DNA of 64,000 nucleotides from a virus: IMG/VR virus record IMGVR_UViG_3300005527_000052, positions 1 through 64,000 of that record, one strand, 5' to 3'. Below, one piece after another: positions 10,098 through 26,971 of this stretch (positions are counted from its first letter, which is position 1; each line of letters starts with the position of its first letter). The notes under the pieces were generated by a model, which had not been told where the DNA came from, made no database searches, and was given only the letters and a program-made list of their open reading frames with translations. Made by a program: the position numbers and the translations under genes.

Positions 10098-10714
10098 TAA
10101 TATCCTCTAATAAATAGATTAATTCCACTGGTATTATACACATAGGCTTTAATATACATATCAAAACTACTCTCAACAGCACCACTGACGCCCTTTATAA
10201 AAGCGTTAACATAATCGTATTCTCCACCGGCACCTTTAACGAATAAATTAAACGATCCGTTACTTGATGGCGTTAGACCATTAATATAAAAATTAACTTT
10301 ACCACTATTTTCTATAATTGTATTTGAAGTAGCTCCGGTCGGTTCTATTCCTGTACCAATTATATTTAATGGTAAATAACCGTATAACCCACTGCCTCCA
10401 ATTAAAGGAAATTCGGTATTTGTGAAAAAACCTTTGACAAAACAATTAACAGAAGAATTATCTCCAAAACCATTAATAAAACAGTTTATATTATTATTTT
10501 GACTTGGATAATATCCACTTAAATAACAAGGAATGTATGCTATTCCGGTTGGATCAATTTTACCGCTAACATAAAAATGTATATAATCGCTATTTGTGTA
10601 GTAATCTGAAGAAGATAAAAAAAGATTTACGCCGTTAAAATAATAACCAGCAGTAGAAGCACCTTCTAAAAACGATAAGATGTTGGAATTTTTATTTGTA
10701 GGAATACTAGACAT
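10097..10714 (-). CDS. Repeat-rich small tail protein
   Basis: 205 residues with at least eight copies of a 15-25 residue unit ending in F(Y/V/I)(I/V)(K/N/S)G, e.g. NCFINGFG, NCFVKGFF, NFYINGLT, NLFVKGAG, NAFIKGVS, NLFIRGY. This is a regular beta-strand repeat, as in beta-solenoid or shaft proteins. Lies directly after the tape measure (1-base overlap), where distal-tail proteins are common. Confidence 0.55.
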   Translation of the reverse strand: MSSIPTNKNSNILSFLEGASTAGYYFNGVNLFLSSSDYYTNSDYIHFYVSGKIDPTGIAYIPCYLSGYYPSQNNNINCFINGFGDNSSVNCFVKGFFTNTEFPLIGGSGLYGYLPLNIIGTGIEPTGATSNTIIENSGKVNFYINGLTPSSNGSFNLFVKGAGGEYDYVNAFIKGVSGAVESSFDMYIKAYVYNTSGINLFIRGY

Positions 10715-13700
10715 TATTCAGTTCCCGGAACCGGTATAGATTCTGTATTGGGTCTTGTACCTGTAGCTTTTTCAATTGCTGTAGCGATAGCATCTGCGAT
10801 ATTATTATTATTATTTCTGATCAATTCTTTAAAAATAGACCCGTTGATTATATTTAAATCAACTTGAATTGGAGATACTTTAATTTCAGTAACTATACCG
10901 CCATTACCGCCGGTAAATCCTTTAACAAAATTAGATAGTTGTTCGGCGGCTACTTTTACGCTTTCTAAAGCGGTAGAACCGTCTTTACTAAAATTTAAAA
11001 TAGACGTTAACATAGCGGTACTGTTTTCTATTGCTAATTTAGCGTCTTTTCCTTGCTGCTCCGACTCTTTTAATTGAAGAGTAACTAATTTAAGCTGTTT
11101 GTCTCTTAATTCTTTTTCTTGCTCGTTACGATTTAATATTTCTTTACGCTGTGCTTCTAAGGCTTGCTTAAATGTGCTAAAAAATTGATCCGCATTTCCG
11201 CCGGTAAAAGCTGCTGCTTGTCTAGATAAATCTCTAGCTCCGCGATTTAAAAACGCATCTTCTACTGTTCGTCTAGCTCCTTCAAAAGGACTACCTTTAA
11301 TATCAGGTATTCTTTGCAGAGTTTCAAGCAGCTTTTGTTCTTGTTCTGGATTAAAGCGATTTAAAACTTGTCTAAATCTTTCTTGACCTCCGGCGTTACG
11401 ATTAATATTACCAAAGGATGATCTACCACCACCTAAAGCTGATCCTAGTTGTTGTAGTAAATCTAAATTAAGACTATCCTTACCTCCGCTTTGATTGCTA
11501 GCGGATAGGTTTTCTCTACCAAAATTGATTAATTCACTTCTTTGCTGCTGATAAGATTGTATAAGTAGACCAGTGCCCTGAGTTAACAAATCTAATTGCG
11601 TATTATACGCTTGCAACGCTTGATTAATTTCATTATATGTTAATGCGTTATCACGAATGGCACTATTAATTTTTTCTTGATCTAATAAACTTGTATTTTG
11701 GACTGAGAGATTTGAACCTGTTCTGCCGATGATAGCATTATTGGCATTAATTCTGTTTTCAAAGCCTATTGAGGATGTTCCTACTCTATTAGCGTTAAAA
11801 GCATCACTTAAAACTTTAAGAGTAGCTGTAAGCGATTGTTGATCGCTTAAATTACCAACCGCGGTCAAATTATTAATAGAAGATAACTGTCCTGTTTTTC
11901 GAATATCATTAATTTGATTACTAAATTCAAATACTTTATTGCTAGAGTCGATCAATCGTTCATTAAATCTATTAACCGACTCTTGTATTTTATTAAAACT
12001 GTCATTTACACTAGCTATAGATGCTCTTATAACCTCAACAACACCATTTAACTGCTGATTAGCTAATTCTGATATTCCGTTTACACCGCCTGAATTAAAA
12101 GCGTTTATAAAATCTTCGCTTTTAATTTTTTTTCCAGTTGTTATTTGTAATTCACTTATAATTTGACCTATACGTTCTGTTCCGGGATCAACAAAAGTAT
12201 TTAAAGGTGTACGGCCTTCGCTAGTATTATTTACAAAATCTAAAGCAGCTCTTGAGGCGTTTTTAAGATTATCTGGATTTGACAATATGGTTTTTAATTC
12301 ATTTATTCTAGAATCTATACCATCTGATATTTGTTTAAATACAGCAACTTGCTGTTGATCTATTCCGGTTCCTTGCAAAATTGATGCATTAGAACTAATA
12401 GCATTAAGTAAATTTTTACCGCTTAAATTTAATGACGCAGGCTCAAATTCACCACGAATAGACGGAATATTAGAAGTTAATAATTCGTTTCTTTGTAATA
12501 AATTTTCTTTATTGAGAGATATTTCAGATACTAAAGACGTAACAGAACTATTAAAGAAATTAGTTAAGTCAATAAAATTAGCTTCAATTTGTTTTAAATT
12601 CTGTTTAAAGTTTTTGCTTTGGGCACCAGCAACAGAATCGAATACATTATTTATTAATTTAAAAATTTCTTTTAAATCGCCGCCACCAGCACCGATTTGT
12701 TTTAATTCAAACCCCTCAAAAATAGCTTTTCGAGCATCTGAAGTGGTTCCTCCGCGACTAATTGTAGTACGAACAAATTCTTGTAAGCTTTTCTGTACAT
12801 TATTATTTCTTAAAACATTATTTGTTCTATTTACTATTTCTTCAGGATTCGCTTTGAAGTCTAAACCTTTTAAAGATTCAAATCTAAATTGTAGTACAGA
12901 ATTAAATCTTTGCTGAGCATTTGCTGAACCTCGTAAATTAGCTGAAAAATTAGATTTAGCTTCAGAAGCATTTAACTCATCTAATTCTTTTTTAGCTTCT
13001 TTACTGGCTTTAGCTAAACCTAATAATGCGGTTCCTACACCAATAACACCGCCGACGGCTATTCCTACTGGACCACCAATTAAAGCACCAACAGTAGCAC
13101 CAGCGGCAGCACCACTTAAAACACTGGATATACCGCTAAAATTTCTGTTACTTCTTATAGCTTCCCGTCTTTGACTGACATTGCCGACTGTAGTATCTTG
13201 TAGAAAATTATCATCTATTATTTGACTACCTAAACCAGCAATAATACCTCCGGCACCGCTTAATCCTCTAGCTCCTAATCTAAAACCGTTATTACCGCCA
13301 ATTCCTGTATTGACAAATAATGCCGATCTAGCTCTACCAAAACCTCTTTGTTGAGCTGTACTTCTTCGGCTATCTCTTCTTCCTAATATAGAATCAGCAA
13401 AAATACTTTCTTCTAGTCTTTGTCTTGATAAAATTCTATCATTATCTAAAACACCATTAATATATTGATCAGGTAATAAAGATTCAGCTTGTCGTCTAGA
13501 AGACCCGCGAGTTACAAAACCTAGTCTATTGGCCGCAGAAATCGATGCTCGTCCTATAGCTGGTAAAGCTGCTACTGCACCCGCACCAGCTAATAAAGCT
13601 ACAACTGGTGCCAAAGTAGAACTAAACTTACTTAGTTGTTCCGATGCGTCAGCAAAAAACTTAAACAAATTACGCAAAGCGTTATTATTAGTAAATTCAG

Positions 13701-15639
13701 CTACAAAATTATTGATAGCAGCTTGTAGTCTTTGGAATGATACCCCTATATCACCTGCTCTTTTGGCGGTTTCTGATTCAAAAGAACCAGAAGATTGATC
13801 AATACTACGTTCAAACTTACCTCTATCGCCGCTTATAGCACTAAGCAAGTTAAGGAATCTACCGCCTTGATAAACGCCAGCTAATTGCTGTGCTAATCTA
13901 ATAGCCTCTGGATTACCATTAAGATTACTTCCGAACTGACGTTCAAAAGCACCTGCGGTACCTGATAATCTATCTTGAATAGTATTACCGGTTACACCTA
14001 GGTTTTTTAATATCTGTTCGTTTTCTGGTCTAAATAATCTAAAACCGATAGATTTAAAGAAGCTACCAATAGTTTCAGATGATTCACGAGAACGATCGCG
14101 TAGCAACGTAAAGTATTTTAAGAAGTCGTCAAAATTACCGCCAGCTTCAACGAAAACAGCACCGCCTCTTTTGACACCATCAAAGATATCTTTAACTTCT
14201 ACGGCGTAATCAGCAGCTACTCTGTTAACTTTATCAAATATTTCACTTGTATCATTTAATTCAAAATTAAACTGTCTAAAAATAGCAATTAAACCATCGG
14301 CGGTTCTATCAATTCCGTCAAATGTAGCAGCAAGCGGAATCTTAGATAGTTTTTCTGCCGCAAAAGACAATTGATCTATCTTTTGAAAACCGGCCTGTGC
14401 TAAGATATCAACACCTTGTAAAGTTTCGGTTGTAGAAACACCAGTAGATAAAGACTGGCCTCTAGCGACACTAGTAATACCGCTTACATTACCTCTTGGT
14501 ACAGCTAAAATCTGAGATAATCTAGTTTGTGCTTTTTCAAATTTTAAAGCTTCCTCGGTAGCTGTTCTAAAAGCATTAATTACAACGAATAAACCGGCAG
14601 TACCTGTTAAGAAAGCACCGTAACGTTTTACCGCTAATCCAATCTGATCGCCGAATTTACTAAAACCTTCGCGGGTTTTATCGATGCCTTTAGCGAGTTT
14701 ATCGTTTTCTAAAGCCGCTTTTTGTAAAACTTTACTATCTATTCTTTTAGAAAGAATTTCTTCTCTTGATCCTCTAAAAAAATCAGTAATCTTATCTAAT
14801 CTTCCGGTATCAACATTAGAAGAAGGATTCTGCAATATCGATTGTATTCGACGTATTCTTTGTAGTCTTTGTTCTAATAGTCTAGCTGCGGGGTCTTCTC
14901 GCAAAAGAGCAGATTTTAATTCGCGTTCAACTTCTTGTGCGTATTTTCTAGCAGAAGATCGAGCGTTTTGTAATGATACCTGATTTAATTTATTAGCTTG
15001 ATCCTGCGTAACAGACAAAAAAGAGTTTTGCTGTCTAACAGGATCAAAATTGGCATTATTAGCAACACTACGAATACCAGACAAACGCTGAGATGTTACA
15101 GATTTACTTTCTAATTCATTTATTTGTTTTAATAATGTTGCACGACGCTGCAATAAAGCATTATATTCGTTAGAATTATTTTTAGCTTTTTGCGATGAGG
15201 TTATTAGTTTTTCTGATTCAGAAAGCTCATTCTTAATAAGAGACAGTGTTTCTTTTTGTAAAGACTGTCTTTTTAATTCTTCTGCGGCAATTTTTTTAGC
15301 AGTTTCTATTGCTTTTTGAGATAGACCTTCTTTAGCTAAATCATTAGTAATAAAACTATTACCGACTTGATATCGACCGGTTTTAGAATTAAATTCTGCT
15401 GTTACAGCATTAGTAGCCGTTTGTATTCTTTTAATTTCAGAAGGTATTTGTCGTAACGCACCTACTAATTGATTTAAATCAGCTACTAATTTTTTATTAT
15501 TAACATCTAATTTATTTAAATCAACATTTTTAAATGCCGATTCTATACTTCTTTGAAGCTTGCTTTGAAAAGAGGCTATAGCTGACTGATTAATATCAAT
15601 CCGGCTTAATTCAGAAACTAGATCAATTTTATTAGCCAA
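10714..15639 (-). CDS. Tail tape measure protein
   Basis: 1,641 residues, the longest gene in the window. Long heptad-rich coiled coils at the N- and C-termini flank a hydrophobic stretch near residues 350-370 (AFLTGTAGLFVVINAF) and a Gly/Ala-rich membrane-like segment (about 855-885, AGATVGALIGGPVGIAVGG). This layout and the position after tail tube and chaperones identify the family. Sets tail length and is thought to help DNA pass the cell envelope. A terminator and a -10 box sit just upstream (15662-15695). Confidence 0.92.
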   Translation of the reverse strand: MANKIDLVSELSRIDINQSAIASFQSKLQRSIESAFKNVDLNKLDVNNKKLVADLNQLVGALRQIPSEIKRIQTATNAVTAEFNSKTGRYQVGNSFITNDLAKEGLSQKAIETAKKIAAEELKRQSLQKETLSLIKNELSESEKLITSSQKAKNNSNEYNALLQRRATLLKQINELESKSVTSQRLSGIRSVANNANFDPVRQQNSFLSVTQDQANKLNQVSLQNARSSARKYAQEVERELKSALLREDPAARLLEQRLQRIRRIQSILQNPSSNVDTGRLDKITDFFRGSREEILSKRIDSKVLQKAALENDKLAKGIDKTREGFSKFGDQIGLAVKRYGAFLTGTAGLFVVINAFRTATEEALKFEKAQTRLSQILAVPRGNVSGITSVARGQSLSTGVSTTETLQGVDILAQAGFQKIDQLSFAAEKLSKIPLAATFDGIDRTADGLIAIFRQFNFELNDTSEIFDKVNRVAADYAVEVKDIFDGVKRGGAVFVEAGGNFDDFLKYFTLLRDRSRESSETIGSFFKSIGFRLFRPENEQILKNLGVTGNTIQDRLSGTAGAFERQFGSNLNGNPEAIRLAQQLAGVYQGGRFLNLLSAISGDRGKFERSIDQSSGSFESETAKRAGDIGVSFQRLQAAINNFVAEFTNNNALRNLFKFFADASEQLSKFSSTLAPVVALLAGAGAVAALPAIGRASISAANRLGFVTRGSSRRQAESLLPDQYINGVLDNDRILSRQRLEESIFADSILGRRDSRRSTAQQRGFGRARSALFVNTGIGGNNGFRLGARGLSGAGGIIAGLGSQIIDDNFLQDTTVGNVSQRREAIRSNRNFSGISSVLSGAAAGATVGALIGGPVGIAVGGVIGVGTALLGLAKASKEAKKELDELNASEAKSNFSANLRGSANAQQRFNSVLQFRFESLKGLDFKANPEEIVNRTNNVLRNNNVQKSLQEFVRTTISRGGTTSDARKAIFEGFELKQIGAGGGDLKEIFKLINNVFDSVAGAQSKNFKQNLKQIEANFIDLTNFFNSSVTSLVSEISLNKENLLQRNELLTSNIPSIRGEFEPASLNLSGKNLLNAISSNASILQGTGIDQQQVAVFKQISDGIDSRINELKTILSNPDNLKNASRAALDFVNNTSEGRTPLNTFVDPGTERIGQIISELQITTGKKIKSEDFINAFNSGGVNGISELANQQLNGVVEVIRASIASVNDSFNKIQESVNRFNERLIDSSNKVFEFSNQINDIRKTGQLSSINNLTAVGNLSDQQSLTATLKVLSDAFNANRVGTSSIGFENRINANNAIIGRTGSNLSVQNTSLLDQEKINSAIRDNALTYNEINQALQAYNTQLDLLTQGTGLLIQSYQQQRSELINFGRENLSASNQSGGKDSLNLDLLQQLGSALGGGRSSFGNINRNAGGQERFRQVLNRFNPEQEQKLLETLQRIPDIKGSPFEGARRTVEDAFLNRGARDLSRQAAAFTGGNADQFFSTFKQALEAQRKEILNRNEQEKELRDKQLKLVTLQLKESEQQGKDAKLAIENSTAMLTSILNFSKDGSTALESVKVAAEQLSNFVKGFTGGNGGIVTEIKVSPIQVDLNIINGSIFKELIRNNNNNIADAIATAIEKATGTRPNTESIPVPGTE

Positions 15640-15664
15640 ACATCCTACCTTATAAAAGAATAAA

Positions 15665-15686
15665 AACCCTATATCTCTATAGGGTT
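15665..15686 (-). terminator. Intrinsic terminator between chaperone and tape measure genes
   Basis: Nine-base-pair stem AACCCTATA/TATAGGGTT with GAGA loop, followed on the minus strand by TTTATT. A -10 box (15687-15692) abuts it, so new transcripts would start inside the 5' arm and escape termination. Confidence 0.7.
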
Positions 15687-15695
15687 ATTATACAC
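15687..15695 (-). promoter_or_regulatory. Late-type promoter for the tape measure gene
   Basis: Minus-strand GTGTATAAT, the same motif as at other late borders, directly adjoining the terminator hairpin. Confidence 0.5.
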
Positions 15696-15711
15696 AATAG
15701 GACTATTTAAT

Positions 15712-16494
15712 TTAATCTTTATAAGCTTCTGGATCAACGTCGATAATTAAATTACCGTTTTCATCAACTTTGTGTCCATAAATATTTATAAATTCACCGT
15801 TTTCGTTAATATAACGGCCTTTTTCATCTACTAATCTAAAGTTCTCATCACATAATCTACCTTTAGAATCAATTAAACGGCCTAATTGATCAATAAAATT
15901 GTATTTTCTTAAAAACTTTATTTCACTGTTTTCGTTTTCGCGTACATCGTGATTAAACTGGAATTTAAAAAAGTAGTTTTTAGAATCAGCTACAAGTTCT
16001 GTATCAGAATTGTCTAAATAATCTTCATAGGATTTAAAAAATGTACGATTAGTTTCAAGATTATAAATTGTAGCAAAAATCAAATAATTTATTCGTTCTG
16101 ATTCAGATAAACTTTCTGCAGTTCTATTGTAGAGACTATCGCGGTTAGAATTGAGTAAGTCTATTTGATTTCTTAGTTTTAGAATTTCTAGAGCTACAGC
16201 ACGACCTTCAAGTTTAGACAATCGTTTACCGTTGTCTTTACCTGATAACAATACCGATTCTTTTGTTTTTAAAGTTTCGCGTAAAACATCTAGTTTCTCT
16301 TTATCTTCTTCTAAAGATAGTCTAGCTTCTAGTAATTTATTAACTTCGGCTGTCAATAAAGCCCCGTCTTCGATAGCTTGCTGAAAAGCTTTATTAACAT
16401 ACTTTTCAGAATCGCGGCGTATTTTCGGTGTTATATCAGACACATATAATGTAACTTCTTTATCGTTCCACTTTGTTTTAAATTCGTTTTTCAT
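15712..16494 (-). CDS. Probable tail assembly chaperone with C-terminal repeats
   Basis: 260 residues immediately before the tape measure. N-terminal two thirds are charged helices; the C-terminus (about 195-255) is a run of short repeats such as LGRLIDSKGR, FRLVDEKGRYI and HKVDENGNLI. Overlaps the upstream gene by four bases. Position points to tape-measure chaperoning, but the repeat tail is not a feature I know from that family. Confidence 0.5.
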   Translation of the reverse strand: MKNEFKTKWNDKEVTLYVSDITPKIRRDSEKYVNKAFQQAIEDGALLTAEVNKLLEARLSLEEDKEKLDVLRETLKTKESVLLSGKDNGKRLSKLEGRAVALEILKLRNQIDLLNSNRDSLYNRTAESLSESERINYLIFATIYNLETNRTFFKSYEDYLDNSDTELVADSKNYFFKFQFNHDVRENENSEIKFLRKYNFIDQLGRLIDSKGRLCDENFRLVDEKGRYINENGEFINIYGHKVDENGNLIIDVDPEAYKD

Positions 16495-16766
16495 CTAAAA
16501 ATCCTTTTAATTTCTGATCTTGAAAGTCTAATCTGGTTATTACCATTATCTAGTATATTTTTACGCCATTGACAAAAGCGGTCATACCATAGTTCTTCTT
16601 CGGGCGTTACTAACGACTCTTCTTTTTCTTCGCCCCACAAATGACCAAAATCGTTTTCTAATTCCGCAATAGCAAAAATAAACGCAGTTCTAATTCTTTT
16701 TGATACAATTTCATTTAGTTCAGTTTCAATATCAATTTGTTTGATTTTTTTAAGAGGTTCTTGCAT
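16491..16766 (-). CDS. Small tail-module protein, possible chaperone
   Basis: 91 residues, helical and acidic (EKEESLVTPEEELWYDRFCQW). Overlaps both neighbours (17 and 4 bases), as tail chaperone pairs often do. No ribosomal slippage site was identified. Confidence 0.45.
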   Translation of the reverse strand: MQEPLKKIKQIDIETELNEIVSKRIRTAFIFAIAELENDFGHLWGEEKEESLVTPEEELWYDRFCQWRKNILDNGNNQIRLSRSEIKRIFR

Positions 16767-17811
16767 TATTAAAATTTCCTTGATTTACCATCATTTTTAT
16801 ATCACGTTTCATGTCTGGTAATTCATGTTCTTTTAGCGTTCCTTTATTAGTTAAAGCTTTTTGACGATCCTTAATCCTTTGAAGTCCTGCTCTGTCATTT
16901 AAATTATACACCTTTTCAGCATCTTCGGGTGAATCAACCACGATTCCTATTTCATTAGAGTTATTAATTTTAGCGTTTTCTGTGCTAAATTTATCTTTCT
17001 TTTCTTTTGATCGTTTTTCTTGCTGTTCTATTAGCCAAGCATCTAATAAATCATCGTTTTCTATTACAGAATCATCTGGACAATCTAAACTTTCGTAAAC
17101 TCCGTCATACAAAATTGACCAAGTTACAAGCTCTTTTTGATATTCAGTCATTTCAGAAGCTGAGTGTTTAAAGAGACTTCCGGTTTTAGTAGATGATCTC
17201 CATATAACTCTCCAAGGATCGTTTCTAGCAATTAAACGTATCGATTTAGAATCTATATCAAAATTTAAGTATGTTTTTTTTAAAAGAAAATTAACTATAT
17301 TTTCTTTTTGTAAAAGATAAAAATCTTTTTCGTTTTCCCACACTCGTTTGTTATTTTTATATGTATTTAAAAATAATAAATATTTGTATTTTTCTATTTT
17401 TAATAAATATTCAATAGTATTAGTTAATAAAGTATTTTTTTTATTACTTAATTCTTCTATTTTTTTTCTATTAGCTTTTGCGAGTTCTTCCCATCTCTTT
17501 TTTTCGTTGCTTTTAAATTGACAATCTTTAATATTTCGTAATATATTAGTAAAATCTTTAGATAAGAAATCTATTTGCTTGTCATAATCAGGCGACCATA
17601 GACCTTTATGAATTAGTATTTCTACAGATTCATCTTGACTTAGCAAACCTTCGGAAACAAAATCTTCTTTTATGTTTTCGCAATATATATCTGCGAGATA
17701 ATAATGTTCCGGTTTAGGATCATAAACAATATACAAATCGTCTAAAAAAATTACCGGCTGATAGCCGGTAATTATTCTGTAACAAAGTTGATGTATTTTA
17801 TCTTTATTCAA
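16750..17811 (-). CDS. Tail-module protein downstream of the tail tube
   Basis: 353 residues, charged and helical, unknown family; starts at 17811, directly after the tail tube stop. Its first codons contain a perfect intrinsic terminator (17744-17773), so most transcripts from the tube promoter should end here and this gene should be expressed at a lower level. Chaperone or head-tail role is inferred from position only. Confidence 0.5.
   Translation of the reverse strand: MNKDKIHQLCYRIITGYQPVIFLDDLYIVYDPKPEHYYLADIYCENIKEDFVSEGLLSQDESVEILIHKGLWSPDYDKQIDFLSKDFTNILRNIKDCQFKSNEKKRWEELAKANRKKIEELSNKKNTLLTNTIEYLLKIEKYKYLLFLNTYKNNKRVWENEKDFYLLQKENIVNFLLKKTYLNFDIDSKSIRLIARNDPWRVIWRSSTKTGSLFKHSASEMTEYQKELVTWSILYDGVYESLDCPDDSVIENDDLLDAWLIEQQEKRSKEKKDKFSTENAKINNSNEIGIVVDSPEDAEKVYNLNDRAGLQRIKDRQKALTNKGTLKEHELPDMKRDIKMMVNQGNFNNARTS
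17744..17773 (-). terminator. Intrinsic terminator inside a coding sequence, after the tail tube gene
   Basis: On the minus strand AATTACCGGCT, loop ATC, AGCCGGTAATT: a perfect 11-bp stem followed by an uninterrupted T run. It begins 38 bases after the start codon at 17811 and encodes ITGYQPVIF in that frame. Confidence 0.8.
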
Positions 17812-18840
17812 TTAGCTTATAAAGTCAAAACCTGTATATGTTACCGTTAATGAATTGAAATTACTATAGTTATATGTAACTGTCATGTTACCACCGGTAG
17901 CGTCACCACCACCCTGAGTAACAGATGAAAGCTTGTTTTTAGTACCTAAATCTACGGTAACTCCACAGTCAAGAACAATCTTAATTGTTTCGTTAGTAAG
18001 ATTTAGAGTATCTTCATAAGCATCGACAGTATCACCGGCATCTGTTGGTGTAACTTCAACCGAGCATGTAACTTCTACAGGGAAGTTCGCGAAACGATAA
18101 TAAGGACCGCGACGGCCTAATTCAAACAATTCGCTACGTCCTAAGTTGCAAGCAACGTTGACGTTTTGAATGTGAGCAAGATACTGACCGTTTACATAGT
18201 TGTTGGTACCGCTAGAACTAATACCGGGAATATCGGTAGGCCAACGTGAAAGAGTCATGTTAACGTTTTGACGACGCTGAGTACCACCGGTAGCTGTTGG
18301 TGCATCAGCATTAGTAAATCGACTTCCGGTTGTATATAAACCAGTAGGTAGAGTACCGGTATTCCAAACTCTGTTATTACCTACTAAAGTAACTGATTCG
18401 GTACAGTTGCCCTGCACAGGGAAACTAAAGTTAATAGCAGAAAGATACATACCGCTCATAAATACTAGCGATAAAGGTGTACCGCTAGCTGCGTTTTGAG
18501 TTTCATTGTAAATAGCGGCAATAACGTTAGCACGAGCCGAATTATATCTACCGTTTAATGAACTAACGGTGGCTTCTTGTGAAGCCAAGTGTTGCAATAG
18601 AGGATAACCGTCTATAACTTTTTGGGCGGTTAATTCAATATTGGGAATATTTTCGATGTTATCATAAATTTCAATCTGGCCGATTTCGAAGACCTGCTCT
18701 AGATTGAAGGTTGTATTTTGCCCAACACTCTGTAAACCGTGAGCGGCAATATAACCAGTTGGTTGAGTACTATAGTTTACACCATGTCTTGCGAAAGCAA
18801 GTGAGTGGATTGGATAATAAATACGGTAATTCGTTGGCAT
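17812..18840 (-). CDS. Tail tube (major tail) protein
   Basis: 342 residues, mixed beta, rich in Thr, Asn, Gly; C-terminus has GGDATGGNMTVTYNY. SD AGAGG ahead of ATG. It has its own late-type promoter (18865-18873) and is followed by an intragenic terminator, the arrangement expected for a very abundant tail protein. Family assigned from position, composition and expression signals, not from a named motif. Confidence 0.65.
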   Translation of the reverse strand: MPTNYRIYYPIHSLAFARHGVNYSTQPTGYIAAHGLQSVGQNTTFNLEQVFEIGQIEIYDNIENIPNIELTAQKVIDGYPLLQHLASQEATVSSLNGRYNSARANVIAAIYNETQNAASGTPLSLVFMSGMYLSAINFSFPVQGNCTESVTLVGNNRVWNTGTLPTGLYTTGSRFTNADAPTATGGTQRRQNVNMTLSRWPTDIPGISSSGTNNYVNGQYLAHIQNVNVACNLGRSELFELGRRGPYYRFANFPVEVTCSVEVTPTDAGDTVDAYEDTLNLTNETIKIVLDCGVTVDLGTKNKLSSVTQGGGDATGGNMTVTYNYSNFNSLTVTYTGFDFIS

Positions 18841-18864
18841 GTTTTATTTACCTCTAATACAAAT

Positions 18865-18873
18865 ATTATACAC
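18865..18873 (-). promoter_or_regulatory. Late-type promoter before the tail tube gene
   Basis: Minus-strand GTGTATAAT in the 34-base gap between genes, 25 bases before the tube start; the leader carries AGAGG. Confidence 0.55.
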
Positions 18874-18874
18874 T

Positions 18875-19813
18875 TTAAGGATACAAAGGTATTTCAAAAG
18901 TACCCCGAACAGTCACATTTTGTATCGGTAAAACCAAATTTGTATTTCTTGTAATCGTAAAATTATCACCAAAACGACAAGTCCGGTAATAATATTGATT
19001 TATTAAATCATTATATAATAATCTATTACTATTTAGTGTTCCACTTATTGAGAGCGGTTTAGGGGCGTTGTTTACATTGAAAGTTCCAATAGATTTTTCT
19101 TCTAGCCAAAAACAAATATCTGTTAATCTTTTACGATCCTGAGAACTTTGTGTAAAAATATCAAATTCTATTTCCGCTTCTACATATTTTGCTCTAGAAC
19201 CTATTTCTACCGGAGATGAGCCTAAATTTTTTAAATATATAAAAATCGACGGTAAATAGACTCTACTTCTTGGATTTGTATTATCTATACCGGAACCGCT
19301 AACGAAAAAATTATTTCTATCATTATAAAAAGCAATAGCGTCACGATAAAAATTGGTATCAGTGGAATAGACATTAATATGACGTAAAGAATGCTCAACT
19401 TCTACTTTTGAAGCAGAAGCTATTTTATTATTAAATATAACACGATTTAACGAATAATCAAAATAATATCCGTTTCCTATTACGGTACTACCGTTAGGAT
19501 AAAAAACATCGTTAACATAAATACCAGATATTCCTATAGGAGATGTTAAACCCGTTGGCTTTAAATTAACTCCTGTTTCCCAGATAACATTATGTTTTAA
19601 ACCCTCCCATACTTTGCCAACTTCAATACCGGGTTGATCAACTGTTCTATATCGAGATACATTATTGCCTAAATAATCAGTTTGACCTTTAAAGATATTA
19701 AAATAAGCACCTAATTCCAGTAATCCATAATCGATAAAGGAAACAATATTTTGGACGATTTGATCCTCGACACTGTTTTGCCCATAATATTGATAATAAT
19801 CTAGATTACTCAT
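18875..19813 (-). CDS. Tail completion or minor structural protein
   Basis: 312 residues, Tyr/Asn-rich beta protein (e.g. GISGIYVNDVFYPNG, GTFEIPLYP), between connector genes and the tail tube. Overlaps the upstream gene by four bases. No sheath hallmark. Tail terminator is one possibility; not resolved. Confidence 0.5.
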   Translation of the reverse strand: MSNLDYYQYYGQNSVEDQIVQNIVSFIDYGLLELGAYFNIFKGQTDYLGNNVSRYRTVDQPGIEVGKVWEGLKHNVIWETGVNLKPTGLTSPIGISGIYVNDVFYPNGSTVIGNGYYFDYSLNRVIFNNKIASASKVEVEHSLRHINVYSTDTNFYRDAIAFYNDRNNFFVSGSGIDNTNPRSRVYLPSIFIYLKNLGSSPVEIGSRAKYVEAEIEFDIFTQSSQDRKRLTDICFWLEEKSIGTFNVNNAPKPLSISGTLNSNRLLYNDLINQYYYRTCRFGDNFTITRNTNLVLPIQNVTVRGTFEIPLYP

Positions 19814-20493
19814 GAATTATTATACTCTTTTATCGCTTTATTAAATTCTTCAATAACAGCGGAATTAATTTCTTTTTGAACTTTCTTATCGCTTAAAACT
19901 TGAATTATAAAATTAGGATTTTTATCAAATGAATGATCGTTTAATGACCAGCTTTTTCCCGGCGATTTTATCATAAAAGCACGACCTGATCTAGAAACGC
20001 CGTCTTTAATATCATCTATATTAAAAGTTATAAAAGCACCATCAACAGAACCTTGACCGTCTAATAACCATTTAAGCCAAGGAACAATGTATTCATTTGA
20101 GGAATAAAAAGACTGTTCATCAGATAACAAAGATTTTTTGATTTTATCTGGATCATAGGTAATACTTAATGTACTATCGCCTTCTCTGGCTCTTTGAACG
20201 ACAATAGATTTAACAACTACATCAACTATCCATTCACTAACTTGATCCGCATCTCCATTCGATAAACCAACAATAGCCGCTATATCTCTATCTTCATCAC
20301 CGGGATAATCACCTTTTAATCCTCGCCATATTTCATTTCTTCTTAAAGCTTTTTCTATAATAGGAATTATCCGTTCCCTCATTTTATCTCTAACAACTCG
20401 ACTTATTTTGGGAAGTTCGGAAAATTTAACAAAGTCAAATAATTTTTTTTTAATTGAATTTGTATTTGTTATTTTAATTCTTACATTAGACAT
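19810..20493 (-). CDS. Head-tail joining or tail completion protein
   Basis: 227 residues with a basic helical N-terminus (IKKKLFDFVKF, RVVRDKMRERIIPIIEKAL) as in HK97 gp10-like proteins. Overlaps neighbours by 4 and 8 bases inside the connector cluster. Assignment by position and fold impression only. Confidence 0.45.
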   Translation of the reverse strand: MSNVRIKITNTNSIKKKLFDFVKFSELPKISRVVRDKMRERIIPIIEKALRRNEIWRGLKGDYPGDEDRDIAAIVGLSNGDADQVSEWIVDVVVKSIVVQRAREGDSTLSITYDPDKIKKSLLSDEQSFYSSNEYIVPWLKWLLDGQGSVDGAFITFNIDDIKDGVSRSGRAFMIKSPGKSWSLNDHSFDKNPNFIIQVLSDKKVQKEINSAVIEEFNKAIKEYNNS

Positions 20494-20989
20494 TTAAAAC
20501 TTTCCAATAAGATACAGCGTATCTTGTTTTATTTCCTAGTCCGTAAGGAGCAAATGATTTAACTAACACCGCTTTATTCTTAATCAAAGGATTATCTGAA
20601 GATTCAACTTCAATATATTGACCTTGTAAAAATTTAGGAATGTCGGATTTATAACATATCATTTTAAATCCACGATCTTCTATTCTTATTCCAGTACTTC
20701 TATAAAAATTATTGGCGTCTAATTGATAAATTCTAGCTTTAACTAAAGTAGTTTTTGCTATTTCTTTATAATTAGAATTTTCTTGTTTATTAGAGCTAGA
20801 CGCGAAATCAGAAATTTGAGAAGGATTACCGAAAATATCTACATCTTTCATTCCTTCAATACCATTATTATTAGATATTGACGCGACGTTATTTATAAAA
20901 TAAATAATTATATCTTTGCCTAGTTCATCGATAAATATTGAACTAGCTTCGTTATACAAATCATAAATGTCATTATTTATTAATGCCAT
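20486..20989 (-). CDS. Head closure or neck protein candidate
   Basis: 167 residues; N-terminal helices then a beta-rich C-terminus (KARIYQLDANNFYRSTG, VLVKSFAPYGLGNKTRYAVSYWKV). Sits between the connector-like gene and the gp10-like gene, the usual place for a head-closure protein. Confidence 0.45.
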   Translation of the reverse strand: MALINNDIYDLYNEASSIFIDELGKDIIIYFINNVASISNNNGIEGMKDVDIFGNPSQISDFASSSNKQENSNYKEIAKTTLVKARIYQLDANNFYRSTGIRIEDRGFKMICYKSDIPKFLQGQYIEVESSDNPLIKNKAVLVKSFAPYGLGNKTRYAVSYWKVLNV

Positions 20990-20990
20990 A

Positions 20991-21428
20991 TTAAGGAGTG
21001 TACGGACCCATAATAGCCTGACCTATATTACCTGCACCTAATTGATACGATTTCTTAGTATCGTCATATTGTTTTTTGTAACCATCTATTAAATCTTTTA
21101 ATACATCAAGATATTTTCCACCATCTAAAGACGACCGATCATCTGTAATTTTTATACCTGCACTTCTCGACATACGTTTGTATTCTTGTCTAAGAACAAT
21201 TTCTGCGGCTTTTATAACTAAAAGTGGGGCAAATTTTTCCGATGTAGGATCGGGGCTAATAGAAGGTTCTTCTGTGTCAACTACAAAATTGTTTAAATTT
21301 AGATCGGAAAAAACCTGTGTGGCTGCAATAGCAATAAATTTTGATAATCGAATATTATCATAATCTTCCGTATTAGAATCATCTAATACATATTTTAGTT
21401 GATTCGCTAAAACGGTAGTCCAAGACAT
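20991..21428 (-). CDS. Head-tail connector (adaptor) candidate
   Basis: 145 residues, largely helical (DDSNTEDYDNIRLSKFIAIAA, KAAEIVLRQEYKRM) with a Gly-rich tail, matching the size and helical style of gp6-type adaptors that dock below the portal. Confidence 0.5.
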   Translation of the reverse strand: MSWTTVLANQLKYVLDDSNTEDYDNIRLSKFIAIAATQVFSDLNLNNFVVDTEEPSISPDPTSEKFAPLLVIKAAEIVLRQEYKRMSRSAGIKITDDRSSLDGGKYLDVLKDLIDGYKKQYDDTKKSYQLGAGNIGQAIMGPYTP

Positions 21429-21440
21429 TTAAAACCTCTC

Positions 21441-21905
21441 TTATACTGTATTTGGATTATAAGCCCGAATAGCGGATAGTGAAACGGTAGTAGTTTGACC
21501 GTTATTACAGACAGCCCAAATAGAGCGTACTAATGAATTATCTAAATTAACCGATTCTCCGGAGCCGATAGGCATACCACGAGATACGTTTATATTGCCG
21601 CTATCGTTAATACAATAAAAGAATGCATTATTTCCTCTATTGGCTAATACTACATCTTGAAGAATTCCAGAGCCATCTGTAGAGGCGTTGTACAAGAAAG
21701 CTCCGTTACTATCAATGACGGTACCTGATCCTAAATTAACCGAGCCTCTATAATAATTAATTGAATTAGAATACCCGGTTAAATCGGTATCGGATGCAAA
21801 AGGTTGTCTAATCCACGTTCCATGTAAACCAGAACCATGCCCGGCAACTAAAACCGAATATCCGTTATTATTTACAGGTTGATTATTAGAAATCTTGCTA
21901 TACAT
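21441..21905 (-). CDS. Beta-rich head-module protein, leaderless
   Basis: 154 residues of Gly/Ser/Asn-rich beta sequence (GYSVLVAGHGSGLHG, NNAFFYCINDSGNINVS). May be a head decoration or neck-fibre protein. The start codon lies five bases after TATAAA (21911-21919 box), so its mRNA is probably leaderless; a capsid-gene terminator lies just before that promoter. Confidence 0.55.
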   Translation of the reverse strand: MYSKISNNQPVNNNGYSVLVAGHGSGLHGTWIRQPFASDTDLTGYSNSINYYRGSVNLGSGTVIDSNGAFLYNASTDGSGILQDVVLANRGNNAFFYCINDSGNINVSRGMPIGSGESVNLDNSLVRSIWAVCNNGQTTTVSLSAIRAYNPNTV

Positions 21906-21910
21906 AATAA

Positions 21911-21919
21911 TTTATACAC
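21911..21919 (-). promoter_or_regulatory. Late-type promoter, leaderless geometry
   Basis: Minus-strand GTGTATAAA, then TTATT and ATG: exactly five bases between the -10 box and the start codon, as in the right-hand gene array. Confidence 0.6.
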
Positions 21920-21935
21920 TTATGAAATAAATAAA

Positions 21936-21955
21936 AACCGGGCGTTAACCCGGTT
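21936..21955 (-). terminator. Intrinsic terminator after the major capsid gene
   Basis: AACCGGG/CCCGGTT stem with a six-base loop and a T-rich tail on the minus strand, 23 bases after the capsid stop. Confidence 0.75.
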
Positions 21956-21978
21956 TATTATCAAGAGTAAAGTTTTCT

Positions 21979-22995
21979 TTAGAAGCTGGCTAGGAGAGTG
22001 GTTCTAGAGTCTAACTGAGCGAAACCGACTTCCATCCAACCGTACATTTCATTCAAGCCTTGACGATGTTTGGTATTATCTTCAAACATTTGTAGATTTT
22101 CACGAATAGGCATGACGAAGCTGTTATTTTTGCTCTTATCAATACCGATTGCTAGTTCTACGTCACCAGATGCTAGTGATTTACCTAAAGTTGAGCTGTA
22201 ATATAGTTGATATTCTTGACCAACACCAAGTTCATCTAAATCTCTTAGTTCGACACCAAAGATTTTAGTCATTTCACGACCGTTATCATCAGTGTAATAG
22301 ATGTTAGTACGGACTTGATCAGGAATCAAGTTTAGATTCCAAGAACGAATATCATCTAGAGCTTCTGGTGAGAGATAAAGATGAGTTAGTTTACCGCGAT
22401 TAACTGAGGTAGAGTTACCACCACCGTTTCTACGCATTACTGTTTTGAGCAATGTGACTAATCTTGGGGTAAATTGACCTGCGGCTGCATCAGGATCGTA
22501 AACTAAGATGTTACGAGATACACCGGCTGATATGATGGTGTTAAAACCGTCATCGTTCAATTTCTTTTTGAAACCAGCTTCGAGAACTTCTACCATTCTA
22601 GCTAGAACATTCCAGTTTGCATCTCGTAAGAATTTACGAGTACAACCAATAGAGTTGCCTATCATATAGGTAGGAATTTCTATGATACTATCGGATGTTA
22701 CGAGCTTGGTAGGTATACCACCGTGATCTGGTAGTGTAAAAGCGTAAAATTCTTTTTCAGTACCCGGTTTGATCAAGTCGGTTGGATATTTAACGGGTGA
22801 TCCGTCAGTGTAATCTTCAACCGTAAAGATATCGCCAAGTATATCGCCAGTCAAAACTGTTTGGCGAATAGGTGTTTCTAGTGCTTTAGAAACTTCAACA
22901 CCGGCTTCTCTCGATTTGGAAGGATCGTTTGATCCCCAATCGTTTAACTTGGCTTTAATCTGTAGTTTTTCTTCGTTGCTAAATTCAAATGGCAT
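21979..22995 (-). CDS. Major capsid protein, HK97 fold
   Basis: 338 residues in the canonical slot after protease/scaffold and decoration genes. Helical N-terminus, then beta and acidic segments such as TVEDYTDGSPVKYP, RNILVYDPDAAAGQF, THLYLSPEALDDI and LRDLDELGVGQEYQLYY, which fit HK97-type shell proteins. SD AAAGGG before ATG. A strong terminator follows, consistent with very high separate expression. Confidence 0.8.
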   Translation of the reverse strand: MPFEFSNEEKLQIKAKLNDWGSNDPSKSREAGVEVSKALETPIRQTVLTGDILGDIFTVEDYTDGSPVKYPTDLIKPGTEKEFYAFTLPDHGGIPTKLVTSDSIIEIPTYMIGNSIGCTRKFLRDANWNVLARMVEVLEAGFKKKLNDDGFNTIISAGVSRNILVYDPDAAAGQFTPRLVTLLKTVMRRNGGGNSTSVNRGKLTHLYLSPEALDDIRSWNLNLIPDQVRTNIYYTDDNGREMTKIFGVELRDLDELGVGQEYQLYYSSTLGKSLASGDVELAIGIDKSKNNSFVMPIRENLQMFEDNTKHRQGLNEMYGWMEVGFAQLDSRTTLLASF

Positions 22996-23017
22996 TTTTT
23001 TACCCTTTATTTATCGA

Positions 23018-23485
23018 TTAAAAATCAACGCGAACTTTAACATAACCGTCTTCATCAGGACGAGAACGGAATTGTCCTATAGCTGGGGCACCCTGAGCCT
23101 GTACTGAACTAATTAATCCGCTAGCACCTAGATAGGCAGGCTGACCAATTAATACAGACGCGGCTGTATTTGGTACGATTGAGTTGGTTGTAACTTCACC
23201 GGCACGAATAATAGAAGCTCTGTTACCAACTTGTACTTCGAGTCTTTCTGAGAGTAAACGATTACGAGTTAAATCGATGTTTACAAATTCATTATTTAGT
23301 ACGCCAAGCGGATATCGGCCTGAAGGATTAACTGCAACATCAGCTAGTTGGTTAAAACTATCCATAGCTGCACCTGAACCGGGGGCACCGGTAGTTGCTA
23401 CTAGGAAAGTGCCACGGGCGGCGGTTTGGTTAAGGAAAAATTCTGTTTCCCAACTTCTAACATTCATATCTGGTTTAAGTGCCAT
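23018..23485 (-). CDS. Capsid decoration-type protein
   Basis: 155 residues, Gly/Ala/Val-rich and beta-like (ARGTFLVATTGAPGSG, ASVLIGQPAYLGASG), with SD AGAGG and its own late-type promoter, directly before the capsid gene. Size, place and likely abundance match head decoration proteins. Confidence 0.6.
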   Translation of the reverse strand: MALKPDMNVRSWETEFFLNQTAARGTFLVATTGAPGSGAAMDSFNQLADVAVNPSGRYPLGVLNNEFVNIDLTRNRLLSERLEVQVGNRASIIRAGEVTTNSIVPNTAASVLIGQPAYLGASGLISSVQAQGAPAIGQFRSRPDEDGYVKVRVDF

Positions 23486-23504
23486 TTGTTAATTACCTCT
23501 TATT

Positions 23505-23513
23505 TTTATACAC
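23505..23513 (-). promoter_or_regulatory. Late-type promoter for the decoration and capsid genes
   Basis: Minus-strand GTGTATAAA in the intergenic gap, upstream of AGAGG and the ATG at 23485. Confidence 0.55.
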
Positions 23514-23516
23514 TAA

Positions 23517-24158
23517 TTATCGACGACCTTGTTTCTTATCAAGAACACTTTTTACAAATTTTTCTAAAGTTGCATTACTAACAGTGGTTTTAGTAGCTGC
23601 TACTTCAATATTAACATCATTTTTCGCTTCTACTTTTTCTAATTCTTCAGCAGCTTTTGTTGAAGGCGTAAAATTAGTTACGGTATTATCAGTTGATTTT
23701 GTATTGCTTGTTACTGTTTGTTCTGTTGCTTTTTTGAACATAGTAGCTGCAACAGTTTTTGCGGCATTATAAGCATCATCGCTCATAGCTTTATATAGTT
23801 CAAGAGCTTTAACTTCATCTTGATCAACAGCACCGAATGATTTCATTTCGGTTAATCTGACTTGTGCTTTATAATCAACTACTTCAGCTTTAGCTTTATC
23901 AAAAGCTTCAGCGACTTGTTTTGCACTATCTTTTGCTTCGGCGAGTGCTTTTTCTGCACATTCCTTATCTTCTTTCATTTTAGCCATTTGCTTTTCAGCT
24001 TCGGCTTTTTCTGAAGCATAGCTATCTTCCATAGATTTAATTTTAGCATTTGCTTCAGCTAGTGCTTTTTCAGCTACTTCTTTAGCTGAATTTAGTTCTG
24101 CGAGCTGTGCTTCGTAATTAACGGTTGCTGATTCTTTGGCAGTATTTGCTTCTGACAT
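23517..24158 (-). CDS. Nested scaffold protein from an internal start
   Basis: In-frame ATG at 24158 (MSEANTAKE...) preceded by GAGG with eight bases between. It gives a 213-residue product consisting only of the coiled-coil scaffold. Nested protease/scaffold pairs are known in lambda (C/Nu3) and other phages; here it is inferred from the SD and domain border. Confidence 0.55.
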   Translation of the reverse strand: MSEANTAKESATVNYEAQLAELNSAKEVAEKALAEANAKIKSMEDSYASEKAEAEKQMAKMKEDKECAEKALAEAKDSAKQVAEAFDKAKAEVVDYKAQVRLTEMKSFGAVDQDEVKALELYKAMSDDAYNAAKTVAATMFKKATEQTVTSNTKSTDNTVTNFTPSTKAAEELEKVEAKNDVNIEVAATKTTVSNATLEKFVKSVLDKKQGRR

Positions 24159-24953
24159 ATTTTGTACCTCGATATTATTTAATACACTATTTTTAGCTAC
24201 AAGCTTAAAAAGATCACTATTATTACTGTCTTCAAATTCGGAATTCTGAGAAATAACTTCAGGTATTATAATAGATTCTTTATTTGCTGGTTTATTTACA
24301 AAACCAATACCTGAAAAAACAATATTTTTTAACCATTTGCCGACCAAATAATTTTGACCATCAAGGTTAATTTTTCCTGTACCTTTATTTTTTCTAAGAT
24401 AATTATCTAATCTAGATGTATTTTCAGTTTTATCTATTAAAGTAATTGAATCTGAACCTTCTTTTCTTAAAGCGTATCCGTAATTTTTAGACAAACATTC
24501 CATAGAAACAAAAAGAACATTATCGCTGATTTGTTCAGCTATTTTTTCAGCATAAGTAGGAAAATACTTATCCCAAACCAACATACCTACTAAAATATGG
24601 TATTTATTTTTAGAGGAAGTTTCGCTAATAGGTAAATAATTTTCATCTAATACTAAATAATTGGTTATTACGCCAATCGTTTCATTATCTTCTTCTTCAC
24701 CGTTATGCTGCCAATTTACCGGTTTATTTAAAACTGTAATTGCCGCTTTTAACGTTTCTTCTGGCGAAAAAACATCATCATTAGCGTTCCAATTACTTGT
24801 TACCATAATAGCAGGTATCCAAGTAGAACCTAAATCAACATAATCGGGTTTTATTTTTTCAACCGATAAACGTAAGTTTGATCTTAAAATATCATCAATA
24901 GATGCTATAGTCTTTTCGCTAGAGTCAATAATAGATTTAAGATCATTCGTCAT
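23517..24953 (-). CDS. Prohead protease fused to scaffold
   Basis: 478 residues from the ATG at 24953; a GTG further upstream overlaps the promoter and is less likely. Residues about 1-250 look like a prohead protease (VNWQHNGE, GVITNYLV, LFVSMECLSK, GIGFVNKPANK). From about 270 on there is an alanine/lysine coiled coil, then a Thr-rich linker and basic tail, typical of scaffold. An internal start with its own SD (see 23517-24158) would release the scaffold alone. Confidence 0.65.
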   Translation of the reverse strand: MTNDLKSIIDSSEKTIASIDDILRSNLRLSVEKIKPDYVDLGSTWIPAIMVTSNWNANDDVFSPEETLKAAITVLNKPVNWQHNGEEEDNETIGVITNYLVLDENYLPISETSSKNKYHILVGMLVWDKYFPTYAEKIAEQISDNVLFVSMECLSKNYGYALRKEGSDSITLIDKTENTSRLDNYLRKNKGTGKINLDGQNYLVGKWLKNIVFSGIGFVNKPANKESIIIPEVISQNSEFEDSNNSDLFKLVAKNSVLNNIEVQNMSEANTAKESATVNYEAQLAELNSAKEVAEKALAEANAKIKSMEDSYASEKAEAEKQMAKMKEDKECAEKALAEAKDSAKQVAEAFDKAKAEVVDYKAQVRLTEMKSFGAVDQDEVKALELYKAMSDDAYNAAKTVAATMFKKATEQTVTSNTKSTDNTVTNFTPSTKAAEELEKVEAKNDVNIEVAATKTTVSNATLEKFVKSVLDKKQGRR

Positions 24954-24957
24954 TATT

Positions 24958-24968
24958 AATTTATACAC
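24958..24968 (-). promoter_or_regulatory. Late-type promoter overlapping the portal stop codon
   Basis: Minus-strand GTGTATAAATT; the TAA stop of portal lies inside the -10 box. The ATG at 24953 is six bases after TATAAA, so the message may be leaderless. Confidence 0.55.
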
Positions 24969-26937
24969 CTTGACTTAACAAAAACGCCTCTATCTTTAAT
25001 GTGTCTTTGTCTTCTTTAGATACTTTATCGGTTTTTAAATCCGATAAAAGTTCTCTAAAAATATTATTAAATTTATTATATTTATCATAATTAATACTAG
25101 CGATTATTTTTTCTGGATCATTTGAATCGTTTAGACTGGCATTAGCAAACGTATGATCAATTAAATTCTCTAGTTGATCCTTTTGGTCTTGTGTTAATTT
25201 CTTAACATTACTCACTTCATAATGTTCAATAATAATAGAAGTTATCTTTTCTTCTATTTCTTGATAGATGTTTTTAGCTAATATTATTTCTGACGCTTTT
25301 CGTTTTCTTGGTTCTTTATCTTTTGATCCAGATGGTCTTCCCGGTCTTTGATTATATGAATCTTGTATAGACATATTACTAGAATTGTCTTTACTGTTCA
25401 TTTTTTGAACTTTTAGTTCATGTTCTTGCTGATATTTTAAGTCAGGATTATGATAAGGACTAGCTTTAGGAGGTAATTCATCCTTATCTCTTTTTTCTTC
25501 TTGTTTTTGAATTCTCAATCTTTCCAAGAAGGGGTTTTCGCCTAAATATTCAATAACTTTATCTTCTGATAAGATATTTCTATCGGCCAAATCCATTAAT
25601 ACTTTGACGTGTACATTATCATCAGTAAAATTAGGTATTCTAAATTTTACTAAAGGTTTATCACTAAAACCCATATTATTATGTATAATGTTAATTTCAA
25701 AATTAAGCCATTCTAGTAACCGATCTCTTACTATCGCTAATTTTGTTACTAATGATTTAGTACGCATAGCCGGATTATTACCGGTCATGCTTTTGGTAGG
25801 ACCACCAATAAGTTCTTCAGGAAAACCAAATACTAAATATATATTAGTGTTATCATCCGTTAATTGAGACAACTTTTCAATCGGTGGATAATACTCAGAA
25901 TATTCTAACAGAGTATCCCATATTAAATCAAATGGACCGGCAGATGTATTATTATCTAATAATCCCGCAAGCTTATTAGCAACGGCTGGACTTGGCAAAA
26001 TCCCTTCTTTGTGATCCCCTAATTTCCATATTCTTAAAGGATGGGCGTAAGCATCTAACGCAAAACTTTTAGCGGCATTTAAACGTTGATTATAAACTAT
26101 ATCAGGCAATACCGGTTTAATTAAAGGTATGCCCCAAGGTTCTAAATCTTCTTTTTTATACCAAGAAACATAAATATCTTTTTCAGGTAGAGGGTAATAA
26201 ATAAATCTTTCTGAAATGTTTTCTTTTAAAGACTTTTTAATTACTTCAGGTATATCATCTAAAACTTGTTTTTCTAATGTAGTCTTAGCATTATTTAATT
26301 TTAACAGATATTCTCTGTTTAAACGTAAACCGTAAATTTTCTTTTCAGAAAACGCACCGGCTACATCTCCGACGATTTCAATATTTCTCGGTTGATAAAA
26401 ACGATATTTAATTGGTATTCTTTTAGATTTCTTTTTTGGCGGTTGATTTAAATTTTCCGCAATTGATTTATCGTCTCTCTTCATTTGTGCGATATCTTGT
26501 GGCTGTAAATCCACATAATATCTTTGTAATACAACATTACATTCTCTAAAAAGATGGGTAGCAAATTGCTGGCACCGTTCTTTTAATCCAACTTTATCCA
26601 TCCAAACACGATAAAAATTATTAATACCTTGATCGCTGTGGTAAATATCTAATCCGTCAATAACTAATTCAACCATCGAATCAACTACACTCCGTAAAAC
26701 GGATGATCCGTAATACGCTGCGTAACACTGAGTAAATAAATCATAGTGAGTCTTAGGAGATTCCAAAGATAACCGTAGACCAAAAAAATCGCTATAGTTT
26801 GATTCTGATCTTACTCTAACGTTGTCCTCGATAGACTCGTATGCTTTAGTTTTTGTAACACCGCCTCCAAAAGAATTATTAGAAGCAACGGTTTTTTGAT
26901 GAGTATCAAGTCTTTTTGGTGTAATTTTCTTTTTCAT
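24961..26937 (-). CDS. Portal protein
   Basis: About 658 residues from the ATG at 26937 (an upstream TTG lies inside a 5' hairpin). Large, charged, directly after the large terminase and before the protease, the standard portal slot. Contains the portal-like NVVLQRYYVDLQP and YPPIEKLSQL regions and a long basic C-terminal extension with PGRPSGSKDKEPRKRKASE. No SD; the leader begins with TTGCGAT/ATCGCAA. Confidence 0.75.
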   Translation of the reverse strand: MKKKITPKRLDTHQKTVASNNSFGGGVTKTKAYESIEDNVRVRSESNYSDFFGLRLSLESPKTHYDLFTQCYAAYYGSSVLRSVVDSMVELVIDGLDIYHSDQGINNFYRVWMDKVGLKERCQQFATHLFRECNVVLQRYYVDLQPQDIAQMKRDDKSIAENLNQPPKKKSKRIPIKYRFYQPRNIEIVGDVAGAFSEKKIYGLRLNREYLLKLNNAKTTLEKQVLDDIPEVIKKSLKENISERFIYYPLPEKDIYVSWYKKEDLEPWGIPLIKPVLPDIVYNQRLNAAKSFALDAYAHPLRIWKLGDHKEGILPSPAVANKLAGLLDNNTSAGPFDLIWDTLLEYSEYYPPIEKLSQLTDDNTNIYLVFGFPEELIGGPTKSMTGNNPAMRTKSLVTKLAIVRDRLLEWLNFEINIIHNNMGFSDKPLVKFRIPNFTDDNVHVKVLMDLADRNILSEDKVIEYLGENPFLERLRIQKQEEKRDKDELPPKASPYHNPDLKYQQEHELKVQKMNSKDNSSNMSIQDSYNQRPGRPSGSKDKEPRKRKASEIILAKNIYQEIEEKITSIIIEHYEVSNVKKLTQDQKDQLENLIDHTFANASLNDSNDPEKIIASINYDKYNKFNNIFRELLSDLKTDKVSKEDKDTLKIEAFLLSQGV

Positions 26938-26960
26938 AATATTGCGATTAAATCGCAATG

Positions 26961-26971
26961 TTATTATACAC
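26961..26971 (-). promoter_or_regulatory. Late-type promoter and 5' hairpin before portal
   Basis: Minus-strand GTGTATAATAA; the transcript would begin near a 7-bp hairpin TTGCGAT/ATCGCAA (26941-26957) that lies five bases before the portal ATG. Confidence 0.5.

Follow-up and report, generated by a model that had tools for sequence, protein, structure and literature searches.

The stretch of DNA analysed here, referred to as the window, comprises positions 1-64000 of a virus record of 83,386 bases. On its minus strand, a gene predicted to encode the major tail-tube protein is directly followed by a gene here called X, and a hairpin with an adjacent T run lies entirely within X (Table 1). The TAA stop codon of the tail-tube gene is followed at once by the TTG start codon of X, leaving a gap of 0 nt, and the same direct order is found in L004, the sole close diverged relative of the window.

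Table 1. Features at and around the tail-tube/X junction.
Feature	Position	Strand	Remarks
Gene of major tail-tube protein	17812..18840	minus	predicted from fold
Gene X	16750..17811	minus	353 aa, TTG start; start aligns with homolog starts
Terminator hairpin (predicted), 11-bp stem and 3-nt loop	17749..17773	minus	all within gene X
T run, part outside the stem	17744..17748	minus	directly 3' of the hairpin
Promoter-like GTGTATAAT	18865..18873	minus	before the tail-tube gene; same place in L004; putative function
Promoter-like GTGTATAAT	16903..16911	minus	within the 3' part of X
Terminator-like hairpin	21935..21956	minus	intergenic, 22 nt after the stop of the capsid candidate 21979-22995
Terminator-like hairpin	15665..15686	minus	25 nt past the stop of 15712-16494, ahead of the tape-measure gene; kept in L004
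Tape-measure gene	10714-15639		matches tape-measure families

The gene upstream of X is assigned by its structural model (pLDDT 63), which matched best the T5 tail-tip chain 7qg9_G (E 3e-9) and further the major tail protein of SH-Ab15497 (E 2e-8) and the tail tube of P74-26 (E 3e-6). For X itself, no match was obtained in Pfam, and neither PHROG (best E 0.0034, a family of unknown function) nor a fold search (one chaperone at E 0.41) gave a match at E ≤ 0.001. The term chaperone, which the initial annotation applied to the genes behind the tail tube, is therefore unproven for X, where it derives solely from gene position. Direct matches to X or the tail-tube protein among 50,697 phage records were not obtained, and a host call from the genome collection was discarded as unusable, since the 11 loci concerned were all MAGs of unrelated groups. 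A profile of X also picked up the 260-aa protein encoded two genes below X (15712-16494), both in the contig of the window and in many relatives; as the profile detects both, the two proteins may be distant relatives, possibly arisen by duplication.

On the minus strand, positions 17773-17749 read AATTACCGGCT-ATC-AGCCGGTAATT, followed by TTTTTAGA. Five of the 11 stem pairs are G-C and the loop has 3 nt. The T run comprises seven T in all, two of which pair in the stem, and it is confined to one side: the minus strand carries TTTTTAGA, and the plus-strand flank is ATTCTGTA, with no T run. The hairpin starts 38 nt inside the X reading frame (TTG at 17811) and its region encodes the residues ITGYQPVIF, so that the structure originally described at this place is confirmed by both sequence and reading frame. 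It likewise sits 38 nt past the tail-tube stop codon, a usual distance for a terminator, and thus combines the properties of intrinsic terminators: a G+C-rich stem, a short loop, a one-sided T run and the distance from the stop codon. Folded alone as the plus-strand copy, the hairpin reached -15.5 kcal/mol (z -4.8; none of 200 shuffles equalled it), and it was also present in the minimum-energy fold of its transcript context (z -4.3). A repeat element was ruled out, the hairpin sequence having no second copy in the window or in the 83,386-base record.

As far as sequence and structural modelling can tell, the frame across the hairpin is truly translated. Fourteen diverse X proteins align without gaps from residue 1 across the first 23 columns, with an invariant G16 and a common R-I-x-[ST]-G pattern, and R12, I13, G16 and Y17 are common to three X sequences including that of the distant L021. 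In the AlphaFold2 model of X from the window (mean pLDDT 83, 16 sequences in the alignment), a helix at residues 3-15 and strands at 17-22 and 25-30 span the hairpin codons. A start of X downstream of the hairpin was rejected, as L004 has CTC in place of the in-frame TTG at codon 26 and as both homology and fold extend from codon 1. The agreement of homolog starts, conserved residues and folded region suggests that the predicted terminator is indeed located inside a coding sequence, as had been proposed.

To estimate how readily such a structure arises from coding constraints, coding sequences were resampled synonymously. Among the 69 coding sequences of the window (44,709 nt), two terminator-like hairpins of -8 kcal/mol or below occur on the sense strand, the strongest being that in X (-14.6 kcal/mol) and the other lying in the tail-tube gene (-10.4 kcal/mol). 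The resampled sets contained a mean of 1.5 sites at -8 and none at -14 in six rounds. For codons 1-45 of X, the probability was 0.11 for a dG ≤ -8 and 1.5e-4 for a dG ≤ -14.5; the former value indicates that the amino acids of X themselves favour a weak hairpin at the site.

Of the loci closest to the window, L002, L003 and L083 come from a single contig and are identical across the 11 kb compared (L003 agrees with the window across 11,026 bases), leaving L004 for comparison, which shares about 77% DNA identity with the window across the operon. In X, 71% of the residues agree between the two, and 59% of the codons for the same residue are identical. The hairpin is kept in L004 with one G-U pair, and so is the T run. 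Up to codon 22, none of the 16 codons with the same residue differs between the two, compared with the identity of 59% gene-wide, and synonymous changes start immediately behind the T run. The longest run of identical codons in X (nine) is formed by the hairpin codons RIITGYQPV; this run alone is modest evidence, because in the nine other genes compared such runs span 5 to 12 codons, two of them exceeding nine.

The search was then widened to distant homologs. Starting from 80 tail-tube loci together with X loci, 172 loci with a match and 121 distinct N-termini were obtained, eight of which were dropped because of a low score, a missing N-terminus or short length, resulting in 113 distinct X homologs. 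With terminator-like defined as dG ≤ -6 and at least 5 T in 8, codons 1-45 contained such a hairpin in 32 of the 113 homologs, where synonymous resampling predicted 3.2, and at -8 kcal/mol in 23, where 1.0 was expected. No excess was seen in six later 45-codon windows of X, which combined gave 5 hairpins against 4.3 expected. The antisense strand of codons 1-45 showed a mild enrichment (10 versus 2.7), and hairpins at -8 with any tail were found in 39 homologs versus 5.1 expected. When each cluster was represented by one sequence, the values were on average 7.8 versus 0.50 at 50% identity (42 clusters), 3.7 versus 0.43 at 40% (26 clusters) and 1.1 versus 0.25 at 35% (13 clusters). The strongest cases belong to lineages with unrelated hairpins, i.e., the window with L004; L086, L102, L104 and L105; the clade of L143, L144, L148 and others; L190; and L118 with its kin, and both hairpin sequence and loop vary from lineage to lineage. 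On a FastTree tree built without the first 35 residues, the presence of an internal hairpin amounts to 13 changes, gains and losses not being separable. Conservation among relatives, which had been named as a check on the hairpin, is thus found both in L004 and, as recurrence at the same junction, in distant homologs.

Covariation was seen in the L144 clade. Across its 17 members, a set that includes L145 and L155 although these fail the terminator rule, a 12-pair hairpin is 91.7% paired, and pairing fell to 28-48% when the partner was shifted by 1-3 columns. Double changes occupied 18 cells, compared with 5.2 after shuffling (0 of 500 shuffles as high), and one pair has turned from T-A to C-G in 4 of the 17, both bases being changed each time.

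With loops of up to 40 nt allowed, the hairpin was located wholly inside X in 29 of the 113 homologs, both inside X and in the intergenic region in 10, across the start codon in 30 and only in the intergenic region in 15, with none in 29; under a 20-nt loop limit, 44 tail-tube-adjacent loci were scored as having none. In 10 of the 29 homologs of the inside-only class the upstream gene abuts or overlaps X (gap -4 to 5 nt), and gaps in the others reach up to 82 nt. The stem begins 38 nt after the stop codon in the window. Where the upstream gene likewise abuts X and dG is ≤ -8, this distance was 27-38 nt; for intergenic hairpins it was mostly 19-30 nt, although some of these lie at 6-14 nt or overlap the stop codon. 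In L043, L044, L049 and L035 a terminator-like hairpin lies over the tail-tube stop codon, starting 9-13 nt before its end.

The start-spanning hairpins, in which the loop contains the ribosome-binding site and ATG of X, form one clade (e.g., L092, L132, L134, L142, L157 and L187), and their number of 30 compares with a shuffled expectation of 1.2. The arms, with the consensus ACTCCCGC and GCGGGAGT, are followed by a T-rich stretch and covary (25 double-change cells versus 9.1 shuffled, in a test that keeps L189, whose automatically chosen 5' arm looks wrong by eye). In 26 of the 30, a leader ORF of 9-17 codons preceded by a Shine-Dalgarno (SD) sequence passes through the 5' arm and has its stop at +1, +4 or +14 of X. 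The leader peptide is not conserved, because the 5' arm is read in different frames, and the leader ORF is suggestive only, as 57% of draws with shuffled leader bases still place its end in this range and the sequences compared are related to one another. An attenuator-like, ribosome-responsive design is plausible in these relatives, not in the window.

Upstream of X, a candidate structured RNA was also noticed, consisting of GCGATAGC ... GC[AG]AGT[AG] inside a variable outer stem (L134:2909, L139:2909, L160:2914, L092:7267 and others). A search of nine such loci against Rfam gave no match at E ≤ 1. Of the 113 loci, 30 have GCGATAGC in the 400 nt that precede X, and in 16 instances picked for at least 4 outer pairs the outer stem averaged 6.3 contiguous pairs, compared with 3.2 when the arms were swapped.

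Three other explanations for the hairpin in the window were considered. That it is a chance by-product of coding ITGYQPVIF appears very improbable: a T-tailed hairpin reaching -8 kcal/mol arises from these residues with a probability of 0.11, and half of a stem is supplied by the conserved [ST]G[YF] codons, but a hairpin this strong is expected at 1.5e-4, the site shows no synonymous change in L004, and the lineage-wide excess is restricted to this end of X. Somewhat less remote, yet still improbable, is a function other than termination, for instance in protecting the tail-tube mRNA as a stable 3' end or a cleavage site, or in binding a regulatory protein. The enrichment in codons 1-45 even when no T tail is demanded (39 versus 5.1) would agree with this; however, T tails are over-represented at -8 (23 versus 1.0 with tail, set against 39 versus 5.1 with any), and the variation of sequence and loop among lineages speaks against one binding protein. 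Since both antisense and any-tail hairpins are enriched, part of the homolog signal could nevertheless reflect another RNA function.

A response to ribosomes, as the initial annotation had suggested by analogy to attenuators, is unlikely for the window, if less so than the foregoing. Ribosomes restarting at the TTG or translating X would melt the hairpin, and read-through would report translation. The abutting stop and start codons allow such reinitiation, and the sister group with start-spanning hairpins (30 of 113) has covarying arms and, in 26 of 30, a leader ORF. However, the window has no leader ORF whose ribosome would overlap the hairpin and no competing antiterminator, the upstream RNA remaining unpaired with the arms in the predicted fold and reaching z -1.1 when folded alone. 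At 38 nt past the stop codon, the hairpin also lies farther away than the 27 nt that a ribosome on that codon can reach, and in E. coli a terminator located 30 bp after a start codon lost only about 10% of its efficiency by translation (Li et al., PMC4824070). In the window, the proposed ribosome response thus found no backing.

We therefore favour, with a probability of roughly 80%, the reading that the hairpin is a partial intrinsic terminator at the end of the tail-tube transcription unit, located within X as the two genes abut. Hairpin, T run, position, coding of X through the site, recurrence, and covariation in relatives are all visible at the sequence level. Polymerase that has passed the tail-tube gene would mostly release at the T run, and read-through transcripts would continue into X and the genes below. 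At this point the first ribosome on X would still be behind the polymerase, and because it has not caught up, termination would be largely independent of X translation. As a terminator performs best when some 25-40 nt separate it from the stop codon of the translated gene before it, the abutment of the tail-tube gene and X would leave the first codons of X as its sole possible place. The initial proposal that the hairpin lowers downstream genes relative to the tail tube is, apart from the chaperone label, in line with this arrangement, as a terminator placed here would reduce X and the genes below it and the predicted fold supports a tail tube upstream. Its purpose may be to provide many copies of the tail tube and few of X. 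Similar signals at this junction in relatives give the hairpin the appearance of a purposeful valve between two tail genes, not of an accident. More tentatively, and at odds that we would put well below even, the junction may represent, throughout a large group of uncultured tailed phages, a valve in the X coding sequence with selected synonymous sites, rebuilt in several lineages and existing in a ribosome-insensitive branch (the window) and a ribosome-gated branch; in the latter, the hairpin loop would hold the ribosome-binding site and start codon of X, and a leader ORF through the 5' arm would end at the X start.

Leaky terminators follow major structural genes of phages, as T-phi follows gene 10 in T7. 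The likeness to T-phi lies in the lowering of genes behind a highly expressed structural gene; the terminator is intergenic in T7 and would be inside the next gene here. Another parallel is lambda tR2 in the construct W48, where a hairpin and T run also follow soon after a start codon, the terminator works though the region is translated, and the same dependence on stop-codon distance holds that would apply here (Li et al., PMC4824070). W48 is a plasmid test of a lambda terminator, whereas the present case is a native phage junction in which the hairpin codons belong to a conserved protein. In that account of E. coli, termination is maximal beyond about 27 nt from the stop codon and repressed close to it, and a terminator acts almost fully when it lies less than 100 bp into a coding region and over 27 nt behind the stop codon of the preceding gene (PMC4824070). 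The stop-to-stem distances of the homologs fit this behaviour, although the E. coli values may not be those of the host; in some species runaway transcription occurs (PMC13323073). The pyrBI leader-peptide attenuator, mentioned in PMC4824070, likewise has a terminator near translated codons. Its leader ORF is matched in the start-spanning relatives, but the window has neither leader ORF nor competing structure. Transcripts ending inside genes are also represented by the ORF-internal 3' ends of E. coli. RNase processing is suggested for the small RNAs from within ORFs that are discussed there, with one possible intrinsic case (Adams et al., PMC7815308), whereas here a hairpin resembling an intrinsic terminator recurs at one homologous junction.

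ORF-internal terminators are thus already known, and what appears to be new is the recurrence at one phage junction; a literature search, conducted mostly without full texts, found no conserved terminator in a coding sequence after a phage tail-tube gene. Coding sequences are rarely considered as a place for a conserved terminator, and here the first codons of one homologous gene hold terminator-like hairpins in several lineages of phages, supported by an excess over synonymous resampling and by covariation. The junction offers a simple rule, namely that the terminator is forced into the next gene where two genes abut. Gene callers may wrongly shift the start of X downstream of the hairpin. 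The start-spanning form with its leader ORF would make the ratios of phage tail genes testable as a ribosome-gated switch.

The tail-tube gene looks like a unit of its own, as it is flanked by a putative promoter and the predicted terminator (Table 1). The motif GTGTATAAW occurs at nine sites in the window, all of them minus-strand and located from 10,133 to 29,585, where 2.1 would be expected on both strands. Several sites lie just before genes, and three positions are shared with L004 (ahead of the tail-tube gene, after the capsid terminator and ahead of the tape-measure gene), making the motif a candidate late promoter. From the site in the 3' part of X, transcription of the genes below could start anew; L004 has GTGTATAAA at these codons, which are also conserved as protein. 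A promoter right behind the hairpin in X (GGAACA-N17-TATATT) was rejected, its -10 part being lost in L004 as judged by eye. In L008, L009, L011, L014, L015 and L017, a promoter-like G[AGC]AACA-N17-TATAAT and a ribosome-binding site stand at a nearly fixed place behind the tail-tube terminator. At 15695-15665 on the minus strand of the window, the hairpin AACCCTATAGAGATATAGGGTTTTTA comes immediately after the promoter-like GTGTATAAT, ahead of the tape-measure gene, and both elements are kept in L004; to find a start site and a terminator-like hairpin so near each other is odd. The structural gene region further contains a GDP-mannose 4,6-dehydratase gene (29776-30819, minus strand; Pfam PF16363, E 5e-95).
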